Below are positions 13,736-52,210 of a stretch of 64,000 nt of DNA, in pieces. A model generated the notes under the pieces. It saw nothing but the letters and a program-made list of their open reading frames with translations, made no database searches and was not told where the DNA came from. Both the position numbers and the translations under genes were made by a program. Source of the stretch: Spirilliplanes yamanashiensis (GTDB taxonomy: Bacteria; Actinomycetota; Actinomycetes; Mycobacteriales; Micromonosporaceae); the NCBI RefSeq assembly GCF_016863475.1, contig NZ_BOOY01000033.1, forward strand, positions 62,001 through 126,000. The letters run 5' to 3'. How positions within the stretch are numbered: the stretch's first letter is position 1; every line of letters begins with the position of its first letter.

Positions 13736-14634
13736 GCGGCGGCGGCGGCCGCGGCGGGCTCGGGCACCGCCGGCGCCTCGGGGCGGCGGCGGCCGGCCGC
13801 GAGCACCGAGCCGGCCAGGATGAGCGCGAACGCCACCACCATCTGCACCGTCACCGGCTCGTCCAGCACCAGCGCGCCGGCGGCCACCGCGACGGCCGGG
13901 TTGACGTAGGTGATGACGACGGCGCGCGGCCCGCCCACCTCGCGGATCAGCGAGAAGAACAGGACCATGGCCAGCGCCGTGCACACCAGCGCGAGGGCGG
14001 CGAGGGCGACCAGCACGTCGGCCGCGGGCCACGCCGAGGGCCAGGTGACGACGGCCGCGGGCGTGTACACGACGGTGGCCACGGCGAGGCAGACGGCGGT
14101 CAGCGGCAGCGACGGCACGTCGGCGAGGTGACGCGACGCGATGATCGGCGCGACGGCGTAGCAGACGGCGACGATCAGCACCTCGGCGATGGGCCAGGGC
14201 GCGCCCCCGGCCAGGGCGGGCCCGGCGAGCACGGCGACGCCGCCGAAGCCGACGGCCAGGCCGGCCCAGCGCAGCGGCCCGAGCCGTTCCCGGTCGCCGG
14301 TGAGCCGGGCGGCGACCACCGCGACGACGGGCGTGGCGGCGATCAGCAGCCCGGTGAGCGAGCTGGTGATGTGCTGCTCGGCGTCCGACAGCAGGAACCA
14401 CGGGACCATGATCTCGATGGCGGCGAAGGCGAGCACGGGCCGCCAGTGCCGGCGCACCCCGGCCAGGGCGTTGCCGCGCAGGGCGAGCGGCAGCAGCACG
14501 GCGGCGCCGACGGCGGTGCGGGCGAACACCAGCACGGGCACCGGCAGGCCCTCGACGGCGATCTTGATGAGCAGGTACGGGATGCCCCAGATGAGGCTCA
14601 TCGCCGCGAACAGGATCCAGCCCCGGCGGCTCAC
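13702..14634 (-). CDS. EamA/DMT-family transporter (RhtA-like exporter)
   Basis: 310-aa protein with ten predicted membrane segments arranged as two EamA repeats. The first begins GWILFAAMSLIWGIPYLLIK and the second follows WPIAEVLIVAVCYAVAPIIA; the late YVNPAVAVAAGALVLDEPV is the EamA signature. Members export amino acids and metabolites; RhtA of E. coli exports threonine and homoserine. GTG 14634 is chosen because the reading frame has no closer start and a short upstream ORF ends in TGA overlapping it (GTGA). Alternatively, a one-base indel in the G-rich stretch at 14636-14646 would join that ORF to this gene. The C-terminal tail is Ala/Pro-rich and overlaps the response-regulator gene. 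Confidence 0.87.
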   Translation of the reverse strand: MSRRGWILFAAMSLIWGIPYLLIKIAVEGLPVPVLVFARTAVGAAVLLPLALRGNALAGVRRHWRPVLAFAAIEIMVPWFLLSDAEQHITSSLTGLLIAATPVVAVVAARLTGDRERLGPLRWAGLAVGFGGVAVLAGPALAGGAPWPIAEVLIVAVCYAVAPIIASRHLADVPSLPLTAVCLAVATVVYTPAAVVTWPSAWPAADVLVALAALALVCTALAMVLFFSLIREVGGPRAVVITYVNPAVAVAAGALVLDEPVTVQMVVAFALILAGSVLAAGRRRPEAPAVPEPAAAAAAAQPPARTSPDS

Positions 14635-14660
14635 GCCCGGCCCCGCGTCGTCGTGGTCAT
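14631..14660 (-). CDS. Leaderless mini-ORF with four threonine codons before the EamA gene
   Basis: ATG 14660 opens a nine-codon ORF, MTTTTRGRA, read as ATG-ACC-ACG-ACG-ACG and ending in TGA at 14633-14631. The TGA overlaps the EamA GTG start at 14634-14632. A TAGGTT hexamer lies 6 nt before the ATG, so transcription probably starts on this ATG. That would make EamA translation depend on termination and re-initiation after the Thr codons. The alternative is a sequencing indel in the G-run, in which case this is simply the true N-terminus of the transporter. Confidence 0.45.
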   Translation of the reverse strand: MTTTTRGRA

Positions 14661-50737: not shown

Positions 50738-50826
50738 GCCACGGCACGAGGTCACCCGCGCCGCCCTCGCCGTGAGCGCCTGACCGGCGCGGCGAAACCC
50801 GGTCGCGGGGCCGGGCCGCCGCGCCG

Positions 50827-50832
50827 TACGGT
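50827..50832 (+). promoter_or_regulatory. -10 element of a leaderless promoter for the leader peptide
   Basis: TACGGT ends 6 nt before ATG 50839, the same geometry as at confirmed gene starts in this window. Confidence 0.65.
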
Positions 50833-50838
50833 CGCGGC

Positions 50839-50895
50839 ATGCAGCGCGCGGCAGCCGACACGACGACGCCGGGACACCCCGGCGGAGCGCGCTGA
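50839..50895 (+). CDS. Leader peptide with three consecutive Thr codons
   Basis: An 18-codon ORF, MQRAAADTTTPGHPGGAR, with ACG-ACG-ACG at 50860-50868. It begins at a leaderless promoter and ends 95 nt before a ThrRS-like gene. A 7-bp hairpin (50867-50884) begins at the last Thr codon, and a terminator-like stem (50910-50937) follows the stop. This is the arrangement of ribosome-mediated attenuation: stalling at Thr codons would cover the first hairpin's 5' arm and free its 3' arm (CCCCGG) to pair with CCGGGG in the terminator's 5' arm, allowing read-through. Inferred from sequence only. Confidence 0.6.
   Translation: MQRAAADTTTPGHPGGAR
50867..50884 (+). promoter_or_regulatory. Hairpin 1 of the putative threonine attenuator
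   Basis: CGCCGGG-ACAC-CCCGGCG, a perfect 7-bp stem that overlaps the last Thr codon of the leader peptide. Its 3' arm (CCCCGG at 50877-50882) can pair with CCGGGG (50915-50920) inside the terminator stem. Confidence 0.5.
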
Positions 50896-50909
50896 CGTCA
50901 TCGACTCAC

Positions 50910-50937
50910 CGGCCCCGGGGCGACATCCCCGGGGCCG
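50910..50937 (+). terminator. Terminator-like hairpin of the putative threonine attenuator
   Basis: CGGCCCCGGGG-CGACAT-CCCCGGGGCCG, a perfect 11-bp GC stem between the leader peptide stop (50895) and the ThrRS-like start (50990), followed by TCGTCGTCT with no long U-run. It is placed to end transcription before the synthetase gene. Confidence 0.65.
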
Positions 50938-50989
50938 TCGTCGTCTCCGAGGTGCGCCCGCGAGGCCCGTACCCGTGAAGGAGACCGTC

Positions 50990-52210
50990 ATGGTCGACCA
51001 CCGCAGGCTCGGCCGCGAGCTGGAGCTGTTCTGTTCGGACCCGCTCGCCGGCGCGGGACTGCCGATCTGGCTGCCCGCCGGCGCCGCCGCCCGGCACGCC
51101 GTCGAGGAGTACCTGCGCGAGAAGGAACGCCGGGCCGGGTACCGGCACGTGGTGTCGCCGCCGGTGGCCCGCCGGGAGCTGTTCGAGCTGTCCGGGCACC
51201 TGGATCACTTCGGCGACGACATGTTCCCGCCCATGCGGCTGTCCGGCGACGACGAGCTGATGCTGCGGCCGAGCCTGTGCCCGCACCACGCGCTGGTGTT
51301 CCGCGCCCGCGGGCGGTCGCACCGCGAGCTGCCGCTGCGGGTAGCCGAGCTGGGCGGCATGTACCGGGCCGAACGTTCCGGCGTGCTCGGCGGCCTGACC
51401 CGGGTGCGGGCGATCTCGCTCAACGACGGGCACACCTTCCGCGCCCCGGAGCAGGCCGTCGACGAGGTGAGCCGCGAGCTGGCGCTGATCCGCGAGGCGC
51501 ATGCCGACCTGGGGGTGCGGGCGTCGGGTGTCCGGCTGTCGCTGCGCGGGCCCGGCGGCGACTACGCCGGCGACGAGGCGATGTGGGCGGCGGCCGAGGG
51601 GGTGCTGCGGGACGCGCTGGCCCGGGCGGGCGTGGCGTACGCCGAGTCGCCGGGCGACGCCGCGTTCTACGGCCCGAAGATCGACGTGCAGGTGCGCGAC
51701 GACGCCGGCCGCGAGCAGACCCTGTCCACCGTGCAGGTCGACCACGGCCGGCCGCGGCGGTTCGGGCTGGAGTACACCGCCGCGGACGGCGGGCGCCGGG
51801 CGCCGGTGCTGATCCACCGCAGCATGGCCGGCAGCATGGAGCGGCTGTTCGCGCACCTCATCGAGGTGCACGCGGGGGCGTTCCCGGCCTGGTACGCGCC
51901 GGTGCAGCTGGTGGTGCTGCCGGTCGGCGCCGGCCAGGACGCCCCGGCCGCGGAGCTGGCCGCCGGCGCGGTGGCGGCCGGGCTGCGCGCCGAGGTGGCG
52001 CACGACGGCTCGCTGGGCGCGCGGGTGCGCGACGCCGCCCGCCGCCGGGTGCCGTACGTGGCGGTGATCGGCGGGCGGGAGGCCGCCGGCGGTGCGGCGG
52101 CCCTGCGCCTGCGCGACGGCCGGGAGCTGGGCCCCCGGCCGGTCGCGCAGGTGCTGGACCTGATCGGTCAGGTGGTGGCCGCGCGGTCGGCGGACCTGCT
52201 GCCCGGGTAG
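50990..52210 (+). CDS. ThrRS-like class II aminoacyl-tRNA synthetase lacking TGS/editing domains
   Basis: 406-aa protein aligned to the catalytic and anticodon-binding parts of threonyl-tRNA synthetase. Class II motifs 1-3 are present: motif 2 around ELGGMYRAERSGVLGGLTRV and motif 3 ending HRSMAGSMERLFAHLIE. The three zinc ligands are kept: Cys in LRPSLCPHH, His in SLNDGHTF and His in LIHRSM. Normal bacterial ThrRS is about 640-690 aa with N-terminal TGS and editing domains, which are absent. The usual FTQDDAH loop reads ISLNDGH. ATG 50990 has AAGGAG 7 nt upstream; GTG 50975 is an alternative. A Thr-codon leader and hairpin precede it. It is probably a second, specialised copy. Confidence 0.87.
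   Translation: MVDHRRLGRELELFCSDPLAGAGLPIWLPAGAAARHAVEEYLREKERRAGYRHVVSPPVARRELFELSGHLDHFGDDMFPPMRLSGDDELMLRPSLCPHHALVFRARGRSHRELPLRVAELGGMYRAERSGVLGGLTRVRAISLNDGHTFRAPEQAVDEVSRELALIREAHADLGVRASGVRLSLRGPGGDYAGDEAMWAAAEGVLRDALARAGVAYAESPGDAAFYGPKIDVQVRDDAGREQTLSTVQVDHGRPRRFGLEYTAADGGRRAPVLIHRSMAGSMERLFAHLIEVHAGAFPAWYAPVQLVVLPVGAGQDAPAAELAAGAVAAGLRAEVAHDGSLGARVRDAARRRVPYVAVIGGREAAGGAAALRLRDGRELGPRPVAQVLDLIGQVVAARSADLLPG

Follow-up and report, generated by a model that had tools for sequence, protein, structure and literature searches.

In Bacillus subtilis, the second threonyl-tRNA synthetase (ThrRS) gene, thrZ, encodes a full-length enzyme and is induced by threonine starvation through antitermination at a T-box, the usual Firmicute device for ThrRS genes. 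The attenuators of actinobacterial trp, leuS, trpS2, and ilvB place a leader peptide and a terminator hairpin before the gene (PMC1262725), an arrangement resembled by the leader and terminator-like hairpin of the locus described here. For the threonine operons of the genomes it examined, the available part of that 2005 survey reports no conserved upstream RNA structure. In Streptomyces lividans TK24, thrL (SLIV_19412) precedes thrS (SLIV_19410), encodes the peptide MKRVRPFLETTPGFVPAR, and is transcribed leaderless (PMC8079986). One hairpin is described for thrL, and its authors call termination there unclear; the available part of their report sets out no antiterminator, start-to-stop helix, Shine-Dalgarno helix, promoter box, or distribution (PMC8079986). 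The consensus for promoters activated by WblC is GAAAWY 3 bp before the -35 element, a 16–19-nt spacer, and TANNNT (PMC7157823). Table 1 of WblC-activated genes includes thrS2 of Streptomyces coelicolor, for which the available part of that account mentions neither a leader nor an attenuator; uORF-mediated attenuation is said to operate at wblC itself (PMC7157823). A search largely outside subscription journals found no publication that joins thrS2, WblC, and a leader, and none that treats the element in more than one family.

The window analyzed here, a stretch of 64,000 nt from Spirilliplanes yamanashiensis, carries a locus that closely resembles S. lividans thrL: in both, the gap from a TAnnnT element to the threonine leader falls within 6–8 nt, and the leader lies directly upstream of a ThrRS gene, thrS2, with the same hairpins. 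The window has three threonine codons and S. lividans two. DNA encoding exactly the S. lividans peptide was found by pattern search in one of 394 genomes of family f20 (G845), where GAAATC (a WblC box) and TACCGT stand before the leader and the same two hairpins, then thrS2, come after it; judging from the peptide, G845 is presumably S. lividans or S. coelicolor, if not a close relative of theirs. Because S. lividans thrL is the same element, the kind is already known, and this precedent qualifies the view of an earlier, sequence-only reading of this DNA that a leaderless ThrRS attenuator would be unusual. We put the probability that this locus, as a leader of the thrL kind, controls an auxiliary ThrRS by ribosome-mediated attenuation at roughly 0.8. 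What is new is added anatomy, and the main surprises are the degree of leader conservation and the antibiotic-stress-type promoter ahead of the leader in most relatives.

The Auxiliary Synthetase Gene

thrS2 (50990–52210, plus strand) starts with the ATG at 50990 and encodes a 406-aa ThrRS with only two parts, the catalytic core and the anticodon-binding domain. Its product scores 394.2 bits against TIGR00418, an equivalog profile for threonine--tRNA ligase (cut-off 383.65), over profile positions 171–559 of 565 only, and lacks the N-terminal part of ThrRS. The gene had been called ThrRS-like from sequence alone; the profile supports the enzyme assignment, although the gene is a second, truncated paralogue and not the full-length ThrRS. 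The other ThrRS of this genome lies in an open frame of 710 aa, whose HSTAH motif we take to mark the editing domain. Since the genome has this second, full-length enzyme, the window gene is regarded as auxiliary and is named thrS2. Like thrZ of B. subtilis it is a second ThrRS gene; unlike thrZ, it is neither T-box-controlled nor full length. A genome search with R1, a covariance model of the leader described below, gave no match near the full-length gene.

The Leader Open Reading Frame

A -10 element, TACGGT (TAnnnT; 50827–50832, plus strand), is followed after 6 nt by an ATG at 50839 that opens an 18-codon leader ORF of leaderless type (50839–50895, plus strand; MQRAAADTTTPGHPGGAR*). The peptide includes Thr-Thr-Thr-Pro, and its three threonine codons, ACG ACG ACG (Thr1–Thr3), occupy 50860–50868 on the plus strand. 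TACGGT, the 6-nt gap, the 18-codon ORF, and the ACG run had been picked out in the sequence-only reading, and sequence and ORF reading agree with it. The leader was compared across 120 upstream regions, of which one is that of the window, 20 come from named genomes, and 99 come from family genomes, a survey that leaves out loci L031–L033 and L035–L091, mostly distant relatives. A frame-requiring script found the leader ORF and TAnnnT at the same promoter spacing in 116 of the 120, each with a TAnnnT, a start codon 6–8 nt on, in-frame threonine codons, and a stop; dropped were L016 and L028, without the motif, and L189 and L190, with no TAnnnT at the right distance. The gap from TAnnnT to ATG is 6 nt in 67 loci, 7 nt in 47, and 8 nt in two, and this near-constant spacing, together with the leaderless transcription of S. 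lividans thrL (PMC8079986), argues for the leaderless reading first made from the letters. The leaders at L013 and L127 are identical and probably represent one species, and further duplicates may remain among the 120 regions.

Because the first parse itself demanded the frame, the analysis was repeated with a frame-blind rule, which takes the start codon lying 6–7 nt after a TAnnnT and nearest to the ACGACGCCG motif. Five of 115 loci had no candidate start; in all of the 110 scored, the start picked regardless of frame is in phase with the threonine codons. Start-to-threonine distances take seven values (18, 21, 24, 27, 33, 36, and 48 nt), each a multiple of three, so leader indels come as whole codons. 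In 72 non-redundant loci, thinned to an alignment score of at most 0.88 (L138 and L141 were removed, having no hairpin in range), Thr1 is threonine in 70 (ACG 58, ACC 11, ACT 1) and not threonine in two, Thr2 is threonine in all 72 (ACG 69, with a synonymous change to ACC in three), and Thr3 is ACG in all 72. ACG fills 199 of these 216 positions, counts that are biased because the parse anchor includes part of the threonine motif, an anchor missing in only two of the 120 loci (L016 and L028). Neighboring ORFs prefer ACC over ACG twofold (238 to 112 in seven ORFs). Conservation of the frame suggests that the leader ORF is translated.

Short ORFs of 8–30 codons placed 6–7 nt after a TAnnnT number only two in the window, both with TTT in the peptide. 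The second, MTTTTRGRA (14634–14660, minus strand), lies 6 nt after TAGGTT and shares a GTGA overlap with the start of an EamA-type exporter gene. The idea that it is a threonine leader for the exporter was rejected: a start codon followed by three threonine codons within 150 nt upstream was found in none of 27 relatives. Elsewhere, the S. lividans metL leader peptide, encoded before metNIQ, contains TTTPGAR, near the motif of the threonine leader (PMC8079986, Table 4), and since it does, metL may also read threonine codons.

The Promoter

Upstream of the -10 element lies GAAACC (50794–50799, plus strand), which matches the WblC/WhiB7-type consensus GAAAWY with one mismatch and starts 33 nt before the -10 element. 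The sequence-only reading had seen neither this box nor the start-to-stop helix and the helix over the Shine-Dalgarno site described below. The box sits 3 nt before a -35 position, itself poor (TCGCGG), with an 18-nt spacer; a single-sequence scan of the window locus found no consensus sigma-70 promoter. In placement, spacer, and TANNNT this candidate promoter fits the published consensus (PMC7157823), with the one mismatch in the box and a weak -35 element.

Comparison of relatives brings out the promoter box in most of them. At offset 33 from the -10 element, 68 of 116 loci match GAAAWY within one mismatch (30 exactly), and at offsets 31–34 the match is within one mismatch in 84 of 116 and exact in 33 of 116, with a background of 1.5%; apart from these, no offset between 20 and 59 has the box in more than four loci. 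Outside the training set of R1, 18 of 29 loci have the box. With the box missing in 32 of the 116 loci and in 11 of these 29, all leader-bearing, the promoter varies while the leader stays.

Ten of the 11 box-less outside loci read TGnTAnnnT, an extended -10 element, and TGCTAnnnT with an unchanged leader occurs at L200, L203, L206, L207, L209, L210, L214, L218, and L222. An extended -10 element without a WblC box may represent a shift from stress-driven to constitutive transcription. The broader idea that box-less loci generally have an extended -10 element was rejected, as only 6 of 32 in the first locus set do. Among the proteins of the S. yamanashiensis genome is a WhiB protein (L233) that we presume to be WhiB7 from its AT-hook, RGRPRK, and WhiB7 may control thrS2 in this strain.

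A promoter of this type could mean that the leader is a general translation-stress sensor, in which any slowed leader ribosome, including one slowed by antibiotics, induces thrS2 within the WblC/WhiB7 response. The box stands at the published spacing in the 84 and 18 loci counted above, S. coelicolor thrS2 is WblC-activated, and wblC is said to use uORF-mediated attenuation (PMC7157823). However, the leader codons specify threonine, the enzyme's own amino acid, and the leader is kept without the box in the 11 outside loci and in the 32 of the larger set. We consider such a general sensor rather unlikely and favor threonine-specific attenuation. Threonine starvation is nevertheless probably not the only input, because thrS2 of the relatives has a WblC/WhiB7-type promoter.

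Hairpins and Long-Range Pairings

Hairpin 1 (segments 1:2; 50867–50884, plus strand) has 7 bp and a loop of 4 nt (arms 50867–50873 and 50878–50884) and starts within the last ACG codon of the leader. Hairpin 2 (50910–50937, plus strand) is terminator-like, with 11 bp and a loop of 6 nt; its GC arms (50910–50920 and 50927–50937) are 100% complementary, TCGTCGTCT follows, and its end lies 52 nt before the start of thrS2. The 7-bp hairpin at the last threonine codon and the perfect 11-bp stem of the sequence-only reading are thus both present, as is the complementarity it pointed to between CCCCGG (50877–50882) and CCGGGG (50915–50920), which defines a candidate 2:3 antiterminator (50877–50920, plus strand). 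A long-range helix, P0 (50842–50894, plus strand), would pair 50842–50849 (CAGCGCGC) with 50887–50894 (GCGCGCTG), tying the region just after the leader start codon to the region over the stop codon. A Shine-Dalgarno-masking helix (50943–50985, plus strand) would pair GTCTCC at 50943–50948 with GGAGAC at 50980–50985.

These pairings were assessed by a swap test, in which native pairing partners were compared with partners exchanged between loci (5000 swaps, 72 thinned loci); the test ignores relatedness, so that its z values are optimistic even after thinning. Hairpin 2 gave the strongest signal of the pairings tested (z = -22.02, 0/5000 swaps as good), followed by hairpin 1 (z = -13.76, 0/5000), whose arms are nearly invariant, the Shine-Dalgarno helix (z = -9.56, 0/5000), and P0 (z = -7.43, 0/5000). 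The 2:3 antiterminator was weak (z = -1.98, 123/5000 as good), and in the redundant 115-locus set its covariation was absent, with 151 of 200 swaps as good. RNAalifold, applied to a 50-row alignment, found only the cores of hairpins 1 and 2; of its 14 predicted pairs, six, all in hairpin 2, change on both sides, and some of these changes may reflect alignment slips. RNAalifold missed P0 because columns of the alignment do not match up around the start and stop codons; the swap test and row reading argue for it. The window and several streptomycetes have P0 as CAGCGCG/CGCGCTG, L166 has it as CAGCAG/CTGCTG, and L180 as TGCAGGT/ACCTGCA. For the Shine-Dalgarno helix, the window has GTCTCC/GGAGAC and L166 has CGCTCTTC/GAAGAGCG.

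Within hairpin 2, the loop-side core of the 5' arm, CCGGG, is kept in 65 of 72 loci, compared with 6 of 54 control hairpins (other perfect hairpins in the examined loci and the window), and the outer stem drifts with compensatory changes. A kept core beside a drifting outer stem is what a shared alternative pairing would be expected to leave, although this is not proof of one.

The Shine-Dalgarno helix suggests another possibility, namely that the leader acts mainly on translation, hairpin 2 being no terminator and translation of the leader altering how the thrS2 Shine-Dalgarno helix folds. Besides its swap-test signal, given above, Shine-Dalgarno pairing averages 0.70 compared with 0.60 in shuffles and is higher in 50 of 67 loci (p = 1.4e-5), with the window's own value hardly above its shuffles (0.54 compared with 0.49). 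Moreover, the hairpin 2 tail has no real U-tract (mean 3.3 T per 10 nt, 66 loci), a single-sequence scan of the window locus found no U-tract terminator, and termination at S. lividans thrL is called unclear (PMC8079986). On the other hand, hairpin 2 carries the strongest swap-test signal of all, and an unsystematic look noticed no alternative pairing that would join leader segments to the Shine-Dalgarno helix. Its tail, furthermore, is imperfect in a way that is common in actinobacteria. We therefore judge a mainly translational leader improbable and retain transcriptional attenuation as the likelier principal mode. In L014 and L173, a very long helix of 13–19 bp stands beside the Shine-Dalgarno site and ends right at AGGAG.

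Ribosome Stalling and the Proposed Mechanism

In a ribosome-stall simulation, the ribosome was placed on the leader in 66 of the 72 loci, six mis-parsed second hairpins being excluded. With the A site on Thr1, and before the 3' arm of hairpin 2 is made, the inner 9 nt of its 5' arm were paired at 0.83; the same 9 nt were paired at 0.64 with the ribosome at Thr3, at 0.43 with it at the stop codon, and at 0.51 with no ribosome. By a margin of more than 0.1, pairing in the Thr1 stall exceeded that at the stop in 65 of 66 loci and that without a ribosome in 62 of 66. The difference between stall and stop was 0.41 for native sequences vs. 0.22 with the hairpin 2 arm shuffled, and was larger in 60 of 66 loci. 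Once the 3' arm was present, hairpin 2 formed at 0.96–0.97 whether the ribosome stalled or not. An antitermination switch would therefore have to be kinetic, since hairpin 2 forms at equilibrium regardless.

For this reason, with the simulation supportive and hairpin 2 forming in either case, attenuation by the leader is rated likely and the exact 2:3 antiterminator is offered as a working model. The antiterminator proposed in the sequence-only reading accordingly remains a candidate: complementarity, the CCGGG core, and the stall simulation speak for it, whereas covariation is weak in the 72 loci and absent in the 115.

In the mechanism we propose, a WblC/WhiB7-type promoter would start transcription right at the leader ATG or beside it, and the first ribosome would translate the 18-codon leader from the extreme 5' end of the RNA. 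With ample charged tRNA-Thr, it would reach the stop codon and cover the 3' side of hairpin 1, so that hairpin 2 would form and transcription would end. With charged tRNA-Thr scarce, it would halt on ACG ACG ACG, covering the 5' arm of hairpin 1; the freed 3' arm could then hold the loop-side half of the hairpin 2 5' arm, and polymerase would continue into thrS2. RNA that is not translated would keep P0, hairpin 1, and hairpin 2 and would terminate. The Shine-Dalgarno-masking helix probably adds a further threshold, at the level of translation. Under such a scheme, the spare ThrRS is probably made only when charged tRNA-Thr runs short.

Distribution of the Leader

Of the 72 loci, 63 were listed and 50 of those aligned to build R1, a covariance model that scores 69.1 bits at the window and 23.3 bits at the next best place in the genome. 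At a threshold of 1e-5, R1 matches 268 of 354 family genomes, or 30 of 44 when counted by genus, training genomes included. Among the 252 family genomes with a close thrS2 match (1e-130), training genomes again included, 251 have the leader; the lone exception, G330, has a thrS2 that starts 103 nt from a contig end. Relatives thus keep the synthetase together with its threonine codons and hairpins, the opposite of the loss that the sequence-only reading had said would count against it. The alignment of relatives that it proposed accordingly favors it, with the ORF in 116 of 120 regions, compensatory changes in hairpin 2, and the link to thrS2 in these 251 genomes.

In 17 family genomes the leader occurs with no thrS2 match at 1e-130, and 15 of these have a diverged, split, or partial thrS2. 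G187 and G241 have a leader match and, at 1e-20, only a full-length-type ThrRS, with no thrS2-type match; their leaders may be orphan attenuators. In G141, G149, G181, G284, G288, G304, and G305, thrS2 appears split, shifted, or partial despite the leader, reflecting either pseudogenes or sequencing errors.

Across the class, 109 of 296 genomes reach an E value of 0.01. A strong group of 47 matches scores at least 44 bits and carries the labels f1 and f18–f21, so that by label the leader is seen in five actinobacterial families; the long weak tail of class matches is probably chance. All of the 29 loci found with R1 in the class search (L199–L227) carry TAnnnT, a start codon, and TTTP in phase, and in 28 the next gene downstream, no more than about 300 nt away, is thrS2; in the remaining locus the contig stops too early. 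No leader among them is identical to any of the 50 training rows, the top similarity being 0.83.

Single-sequence statistics are indecisive because the region is so GC-rich (folding energy of the window locus z = -1.38, not striking), and the locus stands above chance because of its conservation across relatives, not from a single-sequence signal. Coincidence between a terminator-like hairpin of the upstream gene and a chance short ORF, to which these unremarkable statistics and the other TTT mini-ORF of the window might point, is refuted by the frame (110/110), by pairing kept through change in the swap tests, and by the leader in 268 of 354 family genomes, and the other mini-ORF is absent in 27 of 27 relatives. 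A T-box, the tRNA-binding riboswitch, would serve the same regulatory need but is hardly credible here, given that no Rfam family, T-box included, matched at gathering score anywhere in the window and that the leader RNA is about 110 nt long with a conserved ORF.

Possible Implications for Actinobacterial ThrRS Control and Stress Responses

With these observations, an entry known from a single Streptomyces becomes a conserved regulatory RNA with a testable mechanism in five actinobacterial families, and its covariance model would let annotators mark the leader and spot its loss. A broader reading, which we offer tentatively and hold to be possible rather than expected, is that the leader represents an RNA family widespread in actinobacteria and missing from the Rfam copy searched, in which a WhiB7 promoter, a leaderless threonine attenuator, and a masked ribosome-binding site act as serial gates; a spare ThrRS that lacks editing would then be made only under translation stress and charged tRNA-Thr shortage together. 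One setting for this joint trigger might be inhibition of the main ThrRS by a natural compound, for example borrelidin. The element would link two layers that the available accounts describe separately, antibiotic-stress control by WhiB7 (PMC7157823) and attenuation specific to one amino acid (PMC8079986). It also suggests a reason why these bacteria retain a second ThrRS without the N-terminal editing part.
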